64,000 nt of DNA from Heterocephalus glaber (Eukaryota > Chordata > Mammalia > Rodentia > Bathyergidae). Both the position numbers and the translations under genes were made by a program. Position 1 is the first letter of the stretch, and each line of letters opens with the position of its first letter. This document shows, piece by piece, positions 5,081 to 57,549 of this stretch. Below the pieces are notes generated by a model. It was not told where the DNA came from. It saw nothing but the letters and a program-made list of their open reading frames with translations, and searched no databases. The stretch is from assembly GCF_000247695.1 (NCBI RefSeq), contig NW_004624752.1:231072-295071 (forward strand), read 5' to 3'.

Positions 5081-8000
5081 TCAGAGAGAGGTCTGCAACC
5101 AGGCTTCGGGGGGCAGAGTCAGCATGAAGGGACACAGGGCCCCTTTACTCCCCAGGGGAAAGGGCTGCAGTCCCTTGGCCTGGAACTGAGCGGTCCCCTC
5201 AGAGACTGTGAAGGTGGCCGTGACCTGGTGGTTGAGGCAGTAAATGGTGTTGTCCAGCACAGCACAGCGCAGTGGGGCAGAGTCCGGCAGTGGCAGTGAG
5301 GCAGCTCGGCTCCAGGAGCCTGTCACTGTGTTGTAGCGCATCACGGCGGCACCCACGCCCCGCAGCAGGTCAAAGCGGTAGAGGAAACCCCCCAGGGCCA
5401 CCATGTCACTGGAGCGCCGGTGGCTGGCACTGTAGGGGCACTCCTCCCATGAATCTTTCACAGGGCTGTATCTGAGCAGACGGTAGAAGAGGTGACCTCC
5501 CGTGACATAGATGTCCCCACGGCAGGCCACAGCCTCATGGGCCACAGGGAAGGTGCCCTCAGGAAGGGGTGCCCGTGAGGTCCAGGCATCTGTGCGTGGG
5601 TCATATCGCTCCATGCTGTATAGGCACTCACCTCCAATAGCATAAAGCAGCCCGTCCACGGCCACCAGCTTGAGCTGGGCTCGGGCCTGCTGCATGGGCC
5701 TAACCTGGCTCCAGATGTTGGTCAGAGGGTTGTAGCAGAAGACCTCGTTGGAACAGACAGCCTTTGCTCCAGAGCCACGGATGCCACCCGCCAGGAATAA
5801 GTAATTGTGCATGGTACAGAGGCCACAGCCCCGGAGTGGGGCCTCCTCAGGCACTTGGGTCAGGGGCCACCACATGTTCTCTTGGGGGTTGAACACGTGC
5901 AGGTGTGTGCGAGCAGACACGGGTGCTGGCCAGGTCAAAGGGGCCTCTTCTTCACGAGAACCCCTCACCAGCCCTGAGTGGCCCACTTGGTAGAGGCTAG
6001 GCAGCACAAGGACCCCCAGCACTGCCTGACCCTGGCTGGTCCGCAGGCTCAGGATACGCTCCCGCTGAGCCCCACTCAGCTGCCGGTAGAGGTGCGGGTC
6101 ACCCAGCACACGCAGCAGATTGCTGCTCATCAAGGCATAGGTCTCCTGGGCCAGGCCAGGCTCCCCATGCTTCTGGGCAAAGGCCAGCACCTCCAAGCAG
6201 CTGCCCAGGTCTAGCCGCTGGGGCCACAGAGCCATGGCTGTGGTAGACTCCAAGGCTTGAGAGTGGGGATTCTGGGGTCCCTCAACCACCCCCCAGCTCC
6301 CAGGCCTCTGCAGGAAAACCGTAAGTTTCTGGGCCTCTTTCTGCTTCTCTGTGAGGAATTCCCTGTTGCCTGATCTGTCCCCTGGCACCTGTACCTGATG
6401 CTGCCCCAGGGCTGCCTGGCTGACCACCTGCTCCAAGCTCTGTGCCATCTCACACATGCTGCGTTTCCTGGGCCCAGGGATAAGCTGGGAGTCCTGCCTC
6501 GCAGTGGAGCATGGTTTAGGGCCAGGCTGCACCTGCACAGCTGGCTGTGAGAGAGCCCTTGGCATTGCAGCTGGGGGCAGCATGTCCACATGTTTCTCTT
6601 TGCTTCCATCTCCTCCTGAACCTGGAAGTGGGGCAGGGCTGGGGCCCCCATTGATCTTGAAGCTCATTGGCTGTGGCTGACATCCAGCCTTGGCCAGGCC
6701 CCCTGTGCCTGCCTGCATGGCTGTCCCCGAAGAAGCGCTGTGCCTGTCCTGGAGGCTGGGGACAGCCTCTTCCAAATGGGAACCAGAGCATCTGTCCTCA
6801 GAGCGTGTGGGAGTGCTGGGATCCGAAGAGTTTGCAGGAGCTGCCCTCGGAACACTTGTTTGGGGCCTCTCCTTCCTGGGCAAGGGATGGTTTCTAAGAA
6901 CCATGGCAATCAGGTTTCCCCAACTGGTTAAGATCTGCCCTTCCTGATAGCCCTTGGAGAGACCCCCATTGGGCTCCCAAGACACAGCCCTTGACCTCCT
7001 TTCTGGGACTGGGCTTGGGGCTGATGCTGGAGTCGAAGTTAGAGTTGAGACTAGAGTTGGGGCTGGGGCTGGGGATAGGGAAGGGGAAAGGGAGCGGGCC
7101 AGGGCTAGGGCTGGGGCTGGGGTCTCTGCTGAAGCAGCATGTGGGGCTGGGGCTGAAGAGGGGGCTGGCACTGCCCTGCGATTTTCACCCTGAGAAGGTG
7201 CCTGAGTGACTCTGAGGGACGAAGGGTTTGAAGGGGCAGGGGCCATGGGGAGGTGGCCGGGACAGGACCCCTGGGCCGCCTGCTTGCTGTCCCCGCCTTT
7301 CGGGGCCACTTCGCCCTCTCCGACGCGGGAGTCTCCTCCCATTTCAGTCCTGCCCGGCCCCAAGGCCGAGGCCTGCTCCTTCCTGGGGTCAGGGTTCATC
7401 CAGGGCCAGCCTTTCTTAGGGCCCTGGTACCCCTGAGTTCCCCAGACTGCGGCAGCTGCGTCCACCGCGTCCCACACGCTGGCGGTGGCACCCAGGCGCA
7501 GAGGGTCCGGCCTGGAGGGACGTTCACGTCTGTCCCCCGCACCCCTGTCCCCGCGTCGCCGCCGGTTACTCCGGCCTCTGCCCCGCATGCTCACTTCACC
7601 GGCATCCACCTGTAGCTCCGCTTCGCAGCCAGAACCCCGAGGGGTGAAGTGGATCAGGAGGGGCGCAGGGGTCTGCTGTGCTTTGCTCCTACCCAGGAGC
7701 TCACCGTCTGGCTTGGGGGGCGCCCTTCTGTCCCTGTGCGGGGCTCCTGGGGTGGTGTCACGCTGTTGTCCCAAAGTCCCTCTGCTGGCCACCTCGATGG
7801 GCATCTTGAGGGGAAGCAGGGTCAGACCTCCTCCCTGTGGGGCCCCCGGGTCGTGGGCTCCAGCTGGAGCAGGGGCCCCCTGGCCTCTTCCTGGAGGGTC
7901 TGGCTTCCCCTGCCCCAAGCTCTGACCCCCGAAGCCACTGACCTTGGACTTGGCATGCAGGCTCGGCCTGGTTGCTTCCACCTGAGCAGGCTGGGCCCTG

Positions 8001-8185
8001 GGGGCTGTTGACACCGGTCCCAACAAGTTCTGGTCCTTCCCAGAGCCAAACCAGTGCAGACCCAGTGCTGTGGCAGCCACCACAGCCAGAGCCAGCAGGG
8101 CGATCGCAGCACCACCCCATTCATCCTCGCCATTCCCAGCCCAGCCCCAGAGGGGCCCGCTGGTCTCCACGGCACTCTGGCCCAT
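5081..8185 (-). CDS. KLHDC7B: KLHDC7B, kelch domain-containing protein 7B
   Basis: Single-exon coding region of 1034 aa. I start at ATG 8185-8183 (MGQSAVETSG). The frame stays open upstream to about 8265 but has no further ATG there. Order in the protein: one predicted membrane segment near residues 27-47 (AIALLALAVVAATALGLHW); a long disordered, proline/serine/alanine-rich middle; a BACK-like helical segment near 657-732; and kelch repeats near 785-995 with the family pattern of GG followed by Y/W positions (FLAGG, YAIGGE, YVTGGH). An internal methionine near residue 427 (MVLRNHPLP) matches the start of the shorter roughly 594-residue human form, so N-terminal length is the main uncertainty. 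Kelch/BACK proteins are often cullin-3 adaptors, but no BTB domain is visible here. The direct role is not known to me. Confidence 0.95.
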   Translation of the reverse strand: MGQSAVETSGPLWGWAGNGEDEWGGAAIALLALAVVAATALGLHWFGSGKDQNLLGPVSTAPRAQPAQVEATRPSLHAKSKVSGFGGQSLGQGKPDPPGRGQGAPAPAGAHDPGAPQGGGLTLLPLKMPIEVASRGTLGQQRDTTPGAPHRDRRAPPKPDGELLGRSKAQQTPAPLLIHFTPRGSGCEAELQVDAGEVSMRGRGRSNRRRRGDRGAGDRRERPSRPDPLRLGATASVWDAVDAAAAVWGTQGYQGPKKGWPWMNPDPRKEQASALGPGRTEMGGDSRVGEGEVAPKGGDSKQAAQGSCPGHLPMAPAPSNPSSLRVTQAPSQGENRRAVPAPSSAPAPHAASAETPAPALALARSLSPSLSPAPAPTLVSTLTSTPASAPSPVPERRSRAVSWEPNGGLSKGYQEGQILTSWGNLIAMVLRNHPLPRKERPQTSVPRAAPANSSDPSTPTRSEDRCSGSHLEEAVPSLQDRHSASSGTAMQAGTGGLAKAGCQPQPMSFKINGGPSPAPLPGSGGDGSKEKHVDMLPPAAMPRALSQPAVQVQPGPKPCSTARQDSQLIPGPRKRSMCEMAQSLEQVVSQAALGQHQVQVPGDRSGNREFLTEKQKEAQKLTVFLQRPGSWGVVEGPQNPHSQALESTTAMALWPQRLDLGSCLEVLAFAQKHGEPGLAQETYALMSSNLLRVLGDPHLYRQLSGAQRERILSLRTSQGQAVLGVLVLPSLYQVGHSGLVRGSREEEAPLTWPAPVSARTHLHVFNPQENMWWPLTQVPEEAPLRGCGLCTMHNYLFLAGGIRGSGAKAVCSNEVFCYNPLTNIWSQVRPMQQARAQLKLVAVDGLLYAIGGECLYSMERYDPRTDAWTSRAPLPEGTFPVAHEAVACRGDIYVTGGHLFYRLLRYSPVKDSWEECPYSASHRRSSDMVALGGFLYRFDLLRGVGAAVMRYNTVTGSWSRAASLPLPDSAPLRCAVLDNTIYCLNHQVTATFTVSEGTAQFQAKGLQPFPLGSKGALCPFMLTLPPEAWLQTSL
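7006..7170. repeat. GGGCTG-rich low-complexity tract inside KLHDC7B
   Basis: Degenerate repeats of 'ggggctggggctgggg' on the plus strand. In the KLHDC7B frame they encode runs of Pro, Ala, Ser and Leu in the disordered middle. The length is likely to vary between individuals or species. Confidence 0.75.
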
Positions 8186-8230
8186 GGTGCTGGGGAGCCC
8201 GACGCGAGCTGGAAGCTGCCGGTGCCACAC

Positions 8231-10500
8231 ACAGAGCCCTGGGCTGCCTCCGAAAAGATGGCATCAAGCATGCCCCGCCCAGAGCCCGGGTTCAGGTGGA
8301 CCTGTTGGCCAGGCTGGGGAAGGGGGACCCGCCTGCACCCTGGCTTGGAGGTTTGTCAGCAGGCCCGAGATGGTATCAGGGGATGCTGGGGCCTGCAGCT
8401 GTCTTCCTGGCTGCCCACTCACTCCTGCCTTCTCCTTTTCCTGGGATTCCAGGTCAGATGGCAGTGTTCCTGAACTCTGGTCCAGTGCCCAGTCAACCTG
8501 CCTCTGCCTGACACCCTAAGATTCACCCCACAGCCCTGCTCCAGTCTCAGGGGGCTCTGGCAGGGAAGGGTTACTGGTGGGGAGATGTTATCTCGAGACT
8601 TAGCAACATGATGCAGCCCTGATGAAGTTACCAGAAACTGGAGAGGCCGATTCCACTACGGCCGGGGTGGGGGTGGGGGGCTGAGGAGGGGCCCTGGGCC
8701 TGGGCCCAGCAGTGAGGCTGTCATGGCAGCTGTGAGTGAGTGATGGTTTACATGCTGGCATGAGGGGCTGGGGTTCCCACACCCCGTCCACCAGCACCCT
8801 GAGCTCACCAGAGATGGAGCAGAGTTTTCAAGAGAAAAAAAATGAAATAAAGAAAACCCAAAAGTTACATTCCCCTCTTTGTGGTCAGGTTATTCCAACC
8901 ACTTGGGCCTGGATATCCTGGGCCCCTCACCTCTCCAGATCTACCACAGCCCTGGAGAGCCTGAGTAGGCTGCTCCCACCCAGATACCGTGTCAGCAAAT
9001 CCCCTCAGATCCGAGTGCTCTTCCAGCCAACTTCTGATGTCCTCCTCTCAGTCTTCAGCCTGCTATCTGAGCTGAGATCCATCCCTGAAGACCAGACTCC
9101 ACCTCAACTTCTTGCCTGAGCCTGGTCCCCTGAGGCCAGCAGATGTTCCTACCAGGCAGGAGTGCTTGGTTTCCAGGGAGGACTCTATCTCCTCCATCTG
9201 CTTCTCACACAAGCCCATCTCAGGAGTGAATCTTGGGACAGGTGCCAGCTGGGGCCCAGACGTGACACAGAACCTGGAGTGTCCCTGGGACAGATTTCCC
9301 CCAAAAGTGGGCCTTTTCCCCCTTCTGGGACATAGTGGGCCCAGGAACTTCTCCCTAACTCAAGCAGCAAGAAGATGCCAAGTTCACCCCTGGCACCCTG
9401 CCCCAGTTCTGCTGAGCCTCAGGTGTCTCCCCAGCCTGGTCCCCTCCCACCCTGCCCCAGGACTATTACATGACAGTGAATGTGTGGAACGGGCCCCATG
9501 CCTGAAGGCAGACTTCAAGTTTGGGGAGGGCTTTCTTGCCCTTATTCTCTGTCCCAGGCCAAGGCTCTACGCCCCTTGGTTAAGTTGGGGTCCAAAGACC
9601 TTCAGAGAATGGAGCTGACTCCCCTCTCTGTCCCAATAGGCCAATCAGCTCCACCTAGCTTCTGCAGACCCGCTGTCAATCAGAGCTCCAGGCCACTTCC
9701 AGGAATAAGAGGAGGATCTATCAAGTGATGGAGGACACTACATGAGGAGGAACAAGCACAAGGATCATTCCAACCAACCCCACAAGCTGGGAAGACGACA
9801 GAAGGTGCTGCAGACACACAGCTAACCAAAGACCCATTCAGTCCCATCCAAAATGAAGCATCTCCCTTTACCAAATCCAGACCAAGGGCAAAACTTTGCC
9901 CTGCAGGGAGAGACTCCCTGTGGCAAGGGTGCCTGGGAACATGCTGTCTGCCCAAAGCCGAGCTGTTTTGCCCTCTTCACTTCCCAAAGTTAAAATGTGG
10001 CCTGCTGGAAAAGTAAGAGGACTTTGAAGTGCCTACACAAACTGTGAGACACACACAACTGACCTGAATGTGCCATGATAACATACATGTCAGAAATACC
10101 ACTAAGAAAAATGGTAAAAGTAGATAGGAGGTCCCAGGAAGCTCTGGCCCTTAGCACCCTCCTGAGAACCCCTCTTTTCCAGTGTCAGCCGAGGCTCAGC
10201 CCTCAGGAGCCCATCTCAGCTCCTGCAGAAACAGAGAGAGACTGTGTTGCCTCACAGCACATACACACAGGAATAGGCACCGCTACTGCCCGTGTGCTGG
10301 CTGGAGGTCGCCCCATGCCCGTAGATCCACTGTGACACTCACAAGCAGGACCCAGTACAGCGTGGTCCCAGCCCAGGCAAAGCTGGTCCTGGCCACAGCT
10401 GCACCCTTTCTGAACCCTGTGGTGGAAAGAGAGCATAGGAAGTATGAACATGATTCCCAGGGGAGCGTGAGCTCGGGACATACCACCAACACACATAGAT
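8231..10500. other. Single-copy spacer upstream of KLHDC7B
   Basis: GC-moderate sequence with no SINE that I can see and several open frames that lack codon bias or family resemblance. The first few hundred bases should hold the KLHDC7B promoter and 5' UTR. I see no TATA box. Confidence 0.5.
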
Positions 10501-44954: not shown

Positions 44955-45036
44955 GTTTTGTTGGTACTGGGAATTGAACTCAGGACCTTGTGCTTGCAAG
45001 GCAGGCGCAGTGCCACTGAGCTAAATTCCCAGCCCA
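44955..45036 (-). repeat. ID-like SINE in L1
   Basis: Duplicated L1 words GCTATTGACTTTT lie on both sides. Confidence 0.93.
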
Positions 45037-45884
45037 AAGGCTATTGACTTTTGAGTGTTCACTTTGTATCCAGCTACACCACTGAATTTAGTTATCAAAT
45101 CTAAAAGTCTTTTGCTGGGATTTTGGGGGTCTTCTATGTAGAGTATCATGTCATCCACAAATAATGATAATTTAACTTCTTCCTTTCCTATCGTTATTCC
45201 TTTTATTTCTTTCTCTTGTCTGATTGCTCTGGCTAATGTTTCCAAAACTGTATTGAACAAGAGTGGTGACAGTGCACATCCTTGTCTTGTTCCTGATTTT
45301 AGAGTGAAAGCTTTCAGCTTTTGTCCATTTAATATGAGGTTGACTATTAGTTTGTCATAGAAAGCTTTTATCACATTGAGATAAAGACCATCTATACCAA
45401 TTTTCTGTAAGGTTTTATCATGAATGGGTATTGGACCTTGTCAAATGCTTTTTCTGCATCTATTGAGAGGATCATAATTTTTGTCCTTGGCTCTGTTAAT
45501 ATAGTGTATTACATTTATTGATTTGCATATGTTGAACCATCCCTGAATCCCTAGGATGAATCCAACTTGGTCGTGGTGTATAACCTTCTTGATAATTTGC
45601 TGCATTCTGTTTGCCAATATCTTATTGAGGATTTTTGCATCTATGTTCATTAAGGAGATTGGCCTGTAATTCTTTTTGGTTGGATCCTTCTCTGGTTTTG
45701 GAATCGATCAGGGTAATGCTTGCTTCTAGGAATGAATTTGGGAGTATTGCTTCCCTTTCAATTTCATTATCAAGTTTGTGGAGTAGCAGCATTAGGTCTT
45801 CTCTAAATTTCTTGTAGAATTCATCAGTGAATACATCAGGGCCAGGGCTTTTCTTTGTTGGTAGTTTTTGGACTTTGGGGGGTT

Positions 45885-46655: not shown

Positions 46656-48017
46656 AACCAACTCTTCGATTCATTGATTCTTTGTATTTTTTGCTTAGTC
46701 TCCATTGCATTAACTTCTGCTCTGATTTTTATAATTCCCTCCCTCGTACTTGCTTTGACCTTGGCTGGCTTTTCTTTTTCTAGAAGCTTGAGGTTCAACA
46801 TTAGGTTATTTGAGCCTGCTCTGTTTTCCTAATATGGGAATTCACTGCTACAAATTTCCCTCATAGGACTGCCTTCATTGCATCCCATAAGTTCCTATAC
46901 GTTGTGTTGTCATTATTAACGTTAAATTGTAGAAGTTGTCTGATTTCTTCTTTAATCTGTGACACTTTGGTTGCTCAGAGGGGTGTTATTTAATTTCCGT
47001 GTATCTCTGAAGTTCTTGTGGTTTCTTTTGGCGTTACTTTCCAATTTGATTGCAGTATGGTCTGATAATGTGCATGGGATAATGTCAACTCCTTTGCATT
47101 TACTTAAGCATGTTCTATGAGCTAGTATATGGTTTATTTTGGAGAAAGTCCCACGTGCAGCTGAGAAGATTGCGTGTTCTGATGTTGTGGGGTGGAACAC
47201 TCTGTAGACATCTACTAAGTCCATTTGTTCAAAAGTTTGGTTCAATTCTAATATTTCATTGTTGATTTTTTGTCTAGTTGATCTGTCTATATGTGACAGT
47301 GGGGTATTGAGGTTCCCCATTACAACTGTGTTAGGGCTTATGTGATGATTTTTTGTGTTGTTAATATTTGTTTTGTATAGTTGTTGCTATTTGGTGCATA
47401 TATATATTTAGGATTGTTATCTCTTCCTCTTGGGTTGTGCCCTTTACCAGGATGTAGTGACCTTTGTTTCTCTTAATCTGTCTTGGCTTCAAATCCACTT
47501 GGTCTGCAAATTGAACAGCTACCCCTGCTCTTTTCTGATTTTCTGTCACATAGAATATTGTTTTCCATCCCTTGACTTTCAGTCTGTGAATTTTTTTTTC
47601 AATTAAATGTGTTTCTTGTATTCAGCATATTGTTGGATCTTGCCTCTTGATCCATTCTGCCAGTCTGTTTCTTTTGATTGGTGAATTCAGACCATTAACA
47701 TTGATGGTTATAACTGATATGTATTGTCTTATCTCTGTCATGTTATTTTCCTGCTTGTAACAGCTTTCTTGATAACTCTCATGCTGTACAATTCCCCCCC
47801 TTAAAAGTGCACAGTTAGGGCCTGCAGTGTATCCAGAGTTCAGTGACCATCCTCAGTCAATTGTAGAGCCTTTTCATCCCCTGAAGAAGCAGCCCCATGG
47901 CATATGTCAGGCACCTTCCAATTCCTCTCCTCCCAAGCCCAAGGCAGTTGCCAATCTTCTTTATATCTCTATGGATTTATCTGTTCTGGACATTTCCTAT
48001 AAATTAAATTATATTGG

Positions 48018-53989: not shown

Positions 53990-54066
53990 TTTTTTGGTAC
54001 CAGGGATCAAACTCAGGACCTTGCCTTTGCTAGGCAGGTGGTGCCACTGAGCTAAATCCCTGGCCC
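53990..54066 (-). repeat. ID-like SINE
   Basis: (CTTT)n run, GGTACCAGGGATCAAACTCA to 'gctaaatccctggccc'. Confidence 0.92.
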
Positions 54067-54107
54067 TCTTTCATCTTTTTTTATAACAGCCATTCTAACA
54101 AGTGAGA

Positions 54108-54218
54108 GATGACATTTTGTGACTTTAATTTGCATTTTCTGAAGAGTCATGATATTGAACATTTTTGTATGACTGTTAGCTATTTGTCTCTCTGTGACTC
54201 TGTCTCTGCTTGCCTCTT

Positions 54219-54266
<48 letters not shown>

Positions 54267-54378
54267 AGATGACATTTTGTGACTTTAATTTGCATTTTCT
54301 GAAGAGTCATGATATTGAACATTTTTGTATGACTGTTAGCTATTTGTCTCTCTGTGACTCTGTCTCTGCTTGCCTCTT

Positions 54379-54426
<48 letters not shown>

Positions 54427-54427
54427 A
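54108..54427. repeat. Perfect 160-bp tandem duplication with (TC)n
   Basis: Copies 54,108-54,267 and 54,268-54,427 are identical base for base as read here, including a (TC)n microsatellite of the same length near each copy's end. The unit is L1-derived sequence ('gactttaatttgcattttct'). Confidence 0.97.
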
Positions 54428-54545
54428 GATGAGGTCTTGCTGCATTGCCCAGGCTAATCTCAAACTCATGGGTTCAAGGGGTCCTCCCTCCTCAGCCTGC
54501 TGAGAAACTGGGACTACAGACGTGAGCCGCCACATCCAGCACTGT
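54428..54545 (-). repeat. B1/Alu-like SINE
   Basis: 'gatgaggtcttgctgcattg', 'cccaggctaatctcaaac' and 'gactacagacgtgagccgcc'. Confidence 0.8.
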
Positions 54546-54572
54546 GTGTGTGGAGTTTTTTCTTTTGTTTTG

Positions 54573-54628
54573 CTTGTGGTGCTGGGGATTGAACCTAGGG
54601 ACTTTGCACTGAGCTACATCCCTAGCCT
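54573..54628 (-). repeat. ID fragment
   Basis: 'gtgctggggattgaacctag' and 'gagctacatccctagcc'. Confidence 0.75.
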
Positions 54629-54639
54629 TGTTTATGTAT

Positions 54640-54768
54640 TGATTTATTATTCATTTTTATTATAGATAAGGCCCCACCAAGTTTCCCAAGTGGGACTCAA
54701 ACTTGTGATGGTCCTGCCTCAGTCCCCCAGGATGCTGGGATTACAGGCAGGCACCACCATGCCCAACC
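54640..54768 (-). repeat. B1-like SINE
   Basis: 'gataaggccccaccaagttt' and 'gatgctgggattacaggc'. Confidence 0.75.
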
Positions 54769-54925
54769 CTGTTTTGTTGCCAATTTTAGAATGGGGGATA
54801 AGGTGAGTGATTGGTCCCCAAGGCTCTGGAACACACGAGCCAAGTGGCTGAACAGTGTTTAGGGTGGCGAAAAGCCATGCCTGCTGCCACAGTGAAGAGC
54901 CAGACACAAGCGCTGTGTCAAGGTG

Positions 54926-54931
54926 TTTATT
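54926..54931 (-). terminator. MIOX poly(A) signal
   Basis: TTTATT on the plus strand (AATAAA on the minus strand), 106 bases after the MIOX stop codon. Confidence 0.85.
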
Positions 54932-55036
54932 ACAAGCAGGGGCCATGAAAGGTAGTGGCTGAGGGTGGGTGTTTGGGGCTCCCAGCAAGGCCAGCATGGG
55001 GGTCACTGTGCCTGTGAGGGCCAGCGCAGGGCCAGC

Positions 55037-57169
55037 TCACCAGCTCAGGACACCAGGACAATACTTATCAATGAGCGCCTGGTAGTAGGGGCGAAGCTGG
55101 TCCATGGCCGGCAGGTCAGGGCACTTGGTGTAGAGGTCAAACTTGCTGCAGGGTGGAGGGACGATGAGCCTCGAGAAGGTGCCCCTGTCCATTCCCATCC
55201 CCATCCCGGGCCCTTGGGGAAACCCTACTTGAACTCCTGCACCCAGGGCAGCATGTCCAGGTCCCGCTGGCTGCACAGTTGCCGGTAGTCGCCACCCGTG
55301 TGCCACGAGTAGAAGGAGTGGAACCGGATCATGTAGAAGGCCTGCAGGCCACACCTGCTGGCTCAGGCTGCCCAGCCCAGTGGACGGCTTGGCGGGGTGG
55401 GGTGGGGTGGGCTGGGGCGGCCCTTCCCTCTACCTACCTCCGCAGGCAGGGAGACCTGGTTGAACCTCAGCATCTGGTACATGTACTCTGAGGACAGAGG
55501 CGTCACCACAGGCACCTGGGGTGCAGGCGCACCCCCTCCCCACACCCTCTCCCCTCGCCCACTCACCGTCATGGCCCCAGGACATGAGGATGTTCTCCAG
55601 CCCACAGTGGGGCTGGTACATGCCGAGTTCTGTGCTGCAGCAAGAGGTGAGTGTGAGGGACAGAGGTGGCCTGGGGAAGGGAGCACCCCACCCTGGGGCA
55701 GGAGCACCTGTACTGGGGGTCCTGGAGGTCGGGATTGTCCTGAAACGTGGAGTCACAGAACACCACGGAGGCCTGTGGATGGCAGCCAACAGGGAAGGTG
55801 TCTCCGACAACGGCCCACTGGGGAGGGAAGCAGTTGTGGGCGTGGGGGGGGCTGGCCTGTCCCGTGTGGGGTCAGGAGCCCAGAGCTGAGTCTGCCCCCG
55901 ACTTCACTCCTGGCTCTCACCTGGGGCTCCCCCCACAGAGCCAGGACCTTCCCCAGGTCATGCAGGAGTCCAACAAGGTGGAACCAGTCTGCAGGAGAAA
56001 GACAGGACAGACTAGGGGACAGGGGAGGCTGAGACAGAAGGAGCAAGCCCTGGACTGAGAGTGAAGAGGGACACAGGGCTGCTCCTCCGGAAAGGACCTT
56101 CTGGGAGAGGCTTCCCCGAAGCTTTCCCCTTCCAGGGCAGAGGCAGCAAGTCCCTCGCCACGCTAGGGGGCGCACCCTTGTCAGGGTGGGCCTTCCGGAT
56201 GCCCTCCGCTGTCTGAAAGGCATGGAAGGAGTTGGGAAAATCCACATCTGGGTCCGACTCATCCACCAGGTGGTCGAGCATGTCCACGGCCTCCATGATA
56301 GTCATTTTCTTGCAGGAGAAGCCCCCAAACTGGGCATGCTGGGTGGAAAGAGAGGTGTCAGCCCCTCCTGGGGCAAGCAACACCAGGGTCTCCCATGGGG
56401 TACAGGGCAGAGCCACCCACAGAGGCCTCTCCGTCCCCACGGTGGGCACACAACCAAGTTTGTGGGTGAGCAGGGAACTGCTACCTTCTTCCTGACGAAG
56501 TCCACCGTCTGGTGTGTGTGCATGAGCTTGTAGGTGATGAAGACGCGGTCCAGAAGGGGGCCTGACTGCAAGCCAGACGGTTAGCTGGGCCACATGGGGG
56601 CCACCGCCTACCTCTTCTGGACAGAACCCAGGGTGGGAGGGGGCTTCCCGGGGACTCCTGGAGCTATGGGAGGGGTAGGGTCCTCACAGTGTAGTTCCGG
56701 AAGCTGCCCTTGTCTTTGGCCATCTCTGGGTCCACATCAGGTCAGATCAGGGAGGGATCTGGGCCCTGGCAAGAAGGAAGATTTGACCCATTTCACCATC
56801 ATGCCAGCTGCCCGAGAAAGTGAGAGCACCCCACCAGGGCTGGAGATTGGTAGGCCGATGAGGGCACAGCTTCGCCCCAAACCAGACCAGCCCTAGTCTG
56901 GCTGCCCAGTCTGAGGAGCTCTCACTCCTAGTGTCCTTATCTGTCTTTATCAGCCGAGTGGTGTCAGCCAGACCCTGCCTGGGGTGGCAGATGCCAGTGA
57001 CAGCTGGGTAGAAGCTGCCACAACAGGAAGCAGGGAGCCCTTTGACCTGGACACACAGGCCCAACAGGAACCGGCTGGGAGGGGGGGTGCTGCTGCTCTT
57101 CCCACAGGAAGCACCAGTCTGTGGAGCTACTTCCCATCAGTCTGGGGTACTCACCACAGCCACCTTCAT
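55037..57169 (-). CDS. MIOX: MIOX, myo-inositol oxygenase, with in-frame stop in exon 2
   Basis: Kidney di-iron oxygenase that cleaves myo-inositol to glucuronate, the first committed step of inositol breakdown. Ten coding exons, 5' to 3': 57169-57155, 56765-56688, 56565-56485, 56338-56176, 55988-55921, 55817-55708, 55634-55567, 55487-55438, 55341-55229, 55145-55037. Phases agree and the total is 855 bases (285 codons with the final stop; human 286). All iron ligands are present: His98 (NSFHAFQ), His123-Asp124 (LLHDLGK), His194 (SWGHDEY), His220 (MIRFHSF) and Asp253 (NKFDLY). The oddity is TGA at 56,744-56,742, in frame, where relatives read Tyr-Arg: one codon is missing and a stop results. 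The next in-frame ATG (56,708-56,706) has a good context (GAGATGG) and would give a product lacking about 20 residues but keeping Arg29. Everything else looks under selection, so this is a recent loss, an N-terminally shortened enzyme, or a sequence error. Confidence 0.93.
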
Positions 57170-57227
57170 TGTGAGAGGCAGCAGAGCTCAGTGTCAAGGC
57201 TGGCAGGAGGCCTGTGGGCCCAGGTGC

Positions 57228-57243
57228 CCATATATATATATCC
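57228..57243 (-). promoter_or_regulatory. TATA-like element of the MIOX promoter
   Basis: The minus strand reads GGGATATATATATATGGG across this interval, about 60-75 bases upstream of the MIOX ATG. That spacing suits a TATA box with a short 5' UTR, as expected of a tissue-restricted gene, but it could be a chance (TA)n run. Confidence 0.5.
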
Positions 57244-57549
57244 CCACAGGTTACATAAGTGACCAGATACCACCTGACCCCTTGGCCTTGCTCCTTGGTA
57301 ATGAGTGACCATCCGCCCTTTACTGGCCTCAGCAAATTAATGTGTCAGCACAAGAGTGGCCCCGGCCCCCTTGCCCTGATCTTAGCTTCCCCATCCTCCA
57401 GGGAAGAGTGACCTGCATTAGCTGTCCAGGCCTGCGCTGCAGCCAGCCTATTTTTCCCCTGCTTTGACCACTTGCATGCCTGCAGCCAACTCCACCCTAC
57501 AGACAGTACAGATAGACCTCATCCTAAGACACAGCACACCACACATACC

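Follow-up and report, generated by a model that had tools for sequence, protein, structure and literature searches.

A start-proximal stop codon in MIOX of Heterocephalus glaber and a possible N-truncated, hypomorphic enzyme

Introduction

In the window analysed here, a stretch of 64,000 nucleotides of Heterocephalus glaber DNA, the MIOX gene carries an in-frame stop codon shortly after its start, raising the question of whether this animal has lost the enzyme or makes a shortened form of it. By the account in PMC12468218, in the part consulted, mammals depend on a single enzyme, MIOX, for the catabolism of myo-inositol and, in PMC8986073, gentamicin reportedly injures the kidney more severely in mice with extra MIOX. 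Natural reduction or truncation of MIOX in a mammal would amount to an experiment of nature, all the more in the long-lived naked mole-rat. Should only the tail be truncated, or the variant be private, the change would serve as an ordinary caution against calling gene loss from start-proximal stops. A search of the literature on MIOX gene loss, pseudogenes, mole-rats and guinea pig found nothing on a codon-13 stop allele.

Results

Gene structure and genomic context

MIOX lies on the minus strand at 57169-55037 as ten exons that keep the frame throughout (Table 1), the spliced frame measuring 855 nt, or 285 codons with both stops included. Each of the nine introns is GT-AG, and the exon phases join unbroken. 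A family search with PF05153 gave five matches, each above the curated cut-off and all at this locus. The TGA at codon 13 is the sole internal stop of the spliced frame, and a wrong frame or wrong exon call was ruled out as the frame is open to its native end except at this codon.

Table 1. Features of the MIOX gene in the window (window positions).
Feature	Position	Strand	Remark
MIOX exon 1, coding part (MKVAV)	57155..57169	-	spliced frame
Original start codon	57169-57167	-	A at -3, A at +4
MIOX exon 2, with premature stop and downstream start	56688..56765	-	codons read in the window
In-frame TGA, codon 13	56742..56744	-	guinea pig P0001 has Tyr-Arg here
In-frame ATG, codon 20 (Met20)	56721..56723	-	context CCAGAGATGG; opens a 265-aa frame
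MIOX exons 3-10, splice sites intact, without other internal stop	55037..56565	-	PF05153 on five exon stretches
Native stop TGA	55039-55037	-	end of spliced frame

A neighbouring open frame of the window was matched to KLHDC7B, and other open frames near MIOX read like TYMP, SCO2, NCAPH2 and LMF2, which we take to be the human gene order. Because the neighbouring frames follow that order, the locus is in all likelihood orthologous. The assembly searched for a second copy comprises 2.594 Gb in 421 contigs; an assembly-wide family search found none among the best candidates scored, and a 641-base DNA query across exons 1 and 2 found a single place, again among the best candidates scored. In the 3' flank of MIOX, at 54110-54430, a block of about 160 bases (a GA-rich run plus unique sequence) is seen by eye to occur twice, head to tail.

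Other features of the window and assembly

The KLHDC7B frame (5084-8263, minus strand) is a 1060-codon stretch without a stop codon. The database protein P0123, of 607 aa, is identical to the window, and the models of relatives are longer (Fukomys 1211 aa, Erethizon 963, Ctenodactylus 906), so that coding may extend into the N-terminal portion of the frame too. In an alignment of 570 columns KLHDC7B of the window shares 87.2% of residues with Fukomys (P0121), 80.5% with Erethizon and 77.9% with Ctenodactylus, and the value for Fukomys argues against that genus as the source of the DNA. Frames resembling pieces of LINE-1 reverse transcriptase and endonuclease were noted by eye on the minus strand at 45024-45440 and 46955-47386. 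Elsewhere in the assembly, a second Cytochrome_B match (L008, G000:C260:51542-52099) covers positions 2-189 of 189 and has ten inner stops, all of them TGA, which reads as Trp in the mitochondrial code; it is either mitochondrial DNA copied recently into the nucleus or another fragment of the mitochondrial genome. For ND2 (L015:3896-4936), two records labelled Fukomys damarensis are 99% (P0170) and 70% (P0171) identical to the ND2 of the assembly, and one of these public records is probably mislabelled.

The premature stop and its origin

The earlier note on this DNA had reported an in-frame TGA in exon 2 and the loss of one residue, and the window does read CCC-TCC-CTG-ATC-TGA-CCT-GAT at this point. 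Guinea pig P0001 reads PDPSLIYRPDMDPEMAKDKG and the window PDPSLI*PDVDPEMAKDKG, that is SLIYRPD against SLI*PD, the Tyr-Arg of guinea pig being replaced by the stop with a net loss of one codon. The human reading SLVYRPD cited in the same note agrees with the sequences at hand, as a human partial sequence (P0027) and P0001 read SL(I/V)YRPD. Among 34 placental MIOX models aligned with the window, drawn from 120 listed proteins, 31 have a residue at the lost site (Arg in 26, Gln in 2, and Lys, Leu and Trp in 1 each).

One possible route to the present sequence is the loss of ACC from ATC TAC CGA CCT, leaving ATC TGA CCT. As a single 3-base deletion this needs a CGA ancestor, since a CGG ancestor would give TGG (Trp) and then need a further G>A change; the sea lion model P0022 has Trp at this site, as would be expected from a CGG ancestor in that lineage. 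Around the stop, CTGAT-CTGAC-CTGAT forms a short near-repeat, noted by eye, that could have favoured slippage. Alternative first exons, such as that of guinea pig isoform X1, were considered and rejected, as they would join upstream of the TGA and leave it in place.

No other stop, frameshift or splice-site change was found in the 855 nt and nine introns. The remainder of the gene had been called intact in the earlier note; this stands for the splice sites and the frame, and for the iron ligands as far as a presumed list of positions, described below, allows. The recent date also proposed there agrees with the single lesion, but a gene still in use fits it as well. With assumed rates of 2.2-3.5e-9 per site and year and 8-14% indels per substitution, a neutral null MIOX would be expected to gain about 0.26-0.58 stops, frameshifts and splice losses per million years; the lack of a second lesion then sets an upper limit of about 5-11 million years (5% level) on the age of the event, provided that the gene has been a neutral null.

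A downstream start ahead of the catalytic core

Met20 is encoded in frame 18 nt after the TGA, in a strong Kozak context with G at both -3 and +4. One ATG lies between the two, out of frame and in a weak context, and it opens a 55-codon ORF. Guinea pig P0001 and mouse 2huo have this Met too; judged by these sequences, it is old. All six iron ligands and seven substrate-pocket residues are kept (13/13) and lie downstream of Met20, the positions being those that we presume, in mouse numbering, to make up these sites. The next in-frame ATG is codon 46, and a start there would drop two of the listed substrate contacts.

A fold search returned the two solved MIOX structures as its best matches. Of the 289-residue construct of mouse 2huo, 258 residues form the ordered chain, which aligns at residues 28-285; the chain of human 2ibn aligns from residue 36. 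As the mouse chain begins at residue 28, the lost tail is not ordered in 2huo. The predicted model of guinea pig MIOX, itself modest (mean pLDDT 68.5, from 33 sequences), stays below a pLDDT of 50 throughout residues 1-46; its residue 36 is the counterpart of Met20.

Constraint on the N-terminal tail and the core

Guinea pig, human, axolotl and the fish Chanos share the lost motif, GPDPSL(V/I)YRP, which is altered or shortened in the duck, two marsupials, two tenrecs and sloth among those aligned. Conservation shares were taken from 22 of the 34 placental models, the other 12 being partial, odd or mis-spliced. On average the commonest residue has a share of 0.45 at positions 1-5 and of 0.82 at 6-19, reaching 0.90 at 6-12 (where 19 of the 22 models have letters), and of 0.83 at 20-30 and 0.94 at 31-284. 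Because the motif reaches fish and is conserved among placentals, the tail may matter for function. Three of the 22 models, P0002, P0010 (night monkey) and P0017 (hippopotamus), each 269 aa long, have their first residue near window codon 16, lack GPDPSLVYRPD and so do not contribute to the shares of the tail; these may reflect the same tolerance of a late start, or only annotation.

Guinea pig P0001 is the closest named match among those listed, with 94% identity over the 265-aa core. At columns at least 95% conserved, six window residues (148H, 187I, 201L, 206V, 223S and 262A) are found in none of the 34 other placental models. By the same count 30 of these models have 0-5 unique residues (beaver 5), and the remaining four, P0022, P0036, P0053 and P0075, have 13-21 and were taken for odd models. 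The six residues hint at relaxed constraint, or may reflect a long branch. Counted from codon 20 against 20 outgroup models, P0001 and P0002 having been set aside, ten derived residues fall to the window and six to guinea pig with one unclear, a difference that is not decisive.

Discussion

We propose that the MIOX allele of the window is a hypomorph, encoding a shortened, scarcer and probably active enzyme, rather than a null, a reading to which we give a probability of about one half. We favour a hypomorph because the mouse crystal shows no order for the lost tail and the catalytic core is kept. The old start would now head a 12-codon upstream reading frame, and a fraction of ribosomes would start at Met20, having either leaked past the first ATG while scanning or reinitiated 18 nt beyond the TGA. 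Initiation at Met20 would yield a MIOX of 265 residues that keeps the catalytic core and has lost the tail. The earlier note had held that full-length MIOX is lacking and that inositol catabolism may be changed with it. The first part stands to the extent that, with correct base calls, the full-length form has probably been lost, whereas loss of activity does not follow; to say that the animal lacks MIOX is too strong, because the stop is start-proximal, the Met20 ATG is strong and the ordered 2huo chain does not include the lost residues.

Findings in other systems bear on how much enzyme such an allele would make. In the consulted part of PMC13043745, stops less than 150 nt from the start form an NMD-escape class in human data: start-proximal stops had a mean allele fraction of 0.461, NMD-target stops one of 0.383 and rare synonymous variants one of 0.487. 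The portion of PMC10187673 to hand describes a reporter with a 9-codon uORF and a 16-nt spacer in which output fell 5-10-fold and 10-20% of translation was kept; it treats reinitiation as generally inefficient and, by its title, as incomplete protection from NMD. That reporter was built to exclude leaky scanning, whereas in MIOX, with a uORF of 12 codons and a spacer of 18 nt, the first ATG can be skipped too. Edited cells in PMC8775493, as far as the part consulted goes, made N-truncated protein for DSP and JUP when a 5' stop was followed by a good in-frame ATG, and 5' stops in three of five desmosomal genes gave no expression (null). The literature on MIOX structure and N-terminal truncation, as searched, yielded no activity data for the enzyme without residues 1-20.

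A more specific form of the proposal, which we put forward as a long shot, is that the nonsense change has made the old N-terminus a lineage-fixed 12-codon uORF, keeping inositol breakdown low and responsive to eIF2-alpha stress. If true, the kidney would have a lowered, stress-gated loss of inositol, in the manner in which other uORF genes respond.

Recent complete loss is the alternative that survives best, and we regard it as unlikely though deserving of weight. The stop would then be a null allele, fixed in the lineage, and MIOX a very young unitary pseudogene. This would suit the premature stop in the frame, the failure to find another copy in the assembly among the best candidates scored, and the six unique residues at conserved columns, which include a Pro to Ser change four residues past an iron-ligand His. 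Yet the 855 nt and the splice sites of the nine introns hold no second lesion, the relative-rate difference is weak, and a strong in-frame ATG stands just downstream of a stop whose start-proximal class often escapes NMD (PMC13043745, in the part consulted).

Somewhat less probable still, and in our view improbable, is that the sequenced animal carried the stop as a rare or heterozygous allele, or that the assembly is in error here, and that the species otherwise has full-length MIOX. A single place in a single assembly stands behind the stop, and the remainder of the gene looks maintained, as would be expected on this explanation. An error is made harder to accept by the small number of contigs (421), by the exact net 3-base change that the TGA requires and by its site, since indel errors of long reads mostly occur in homopolymers and this is not one.

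That the stop is bypassed, by selenocysteine, by readthrough or by a cryptic in-frame acceptor (the GAG before the codon-20 ATG), is very improbable: the AG right before Met20 would join exon 1 in frame, and the TGA is followed by C, a mildly leaky readthrough context, but the stretch before the cryptic acceptor is, by eye, pyrimidine-poor and a good pyrimidine tract precedes the normal acceptor upstream, the sequence lacks UGA CUAG, known as a strong readthrough motif, and no SECIS family appears among six matches with E up to 5 at window positions 54000-57400.

The proposed hypomorph can finally be set beside known systems. Compared with MIOX of other species (PF05153; mouse 2huo, human 2ibn), the window gene is the same in its exon frame, catalytic core and listed ligands, and differs in the codon-13 stop, in one tail residue fewer and in the six unique residues at conserved columns. 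It resembles the engineered 5' stop alleles of DSP and JUP, in which, by the part of PMC8775493 consulted, a stop is likewise followed by a good in-frame ATG and an N-truncated protein is made, and it differs from them in being read from an assembly. Like young unitary pseudogenes, it is a single gene with one disabling lesion and a frame otherwise intact; unlike them, it has no further lesions and has a plausible functional start just downstream. In these terms, MIOX of the window is a start-proximal nonsense allele of a known enzyme.
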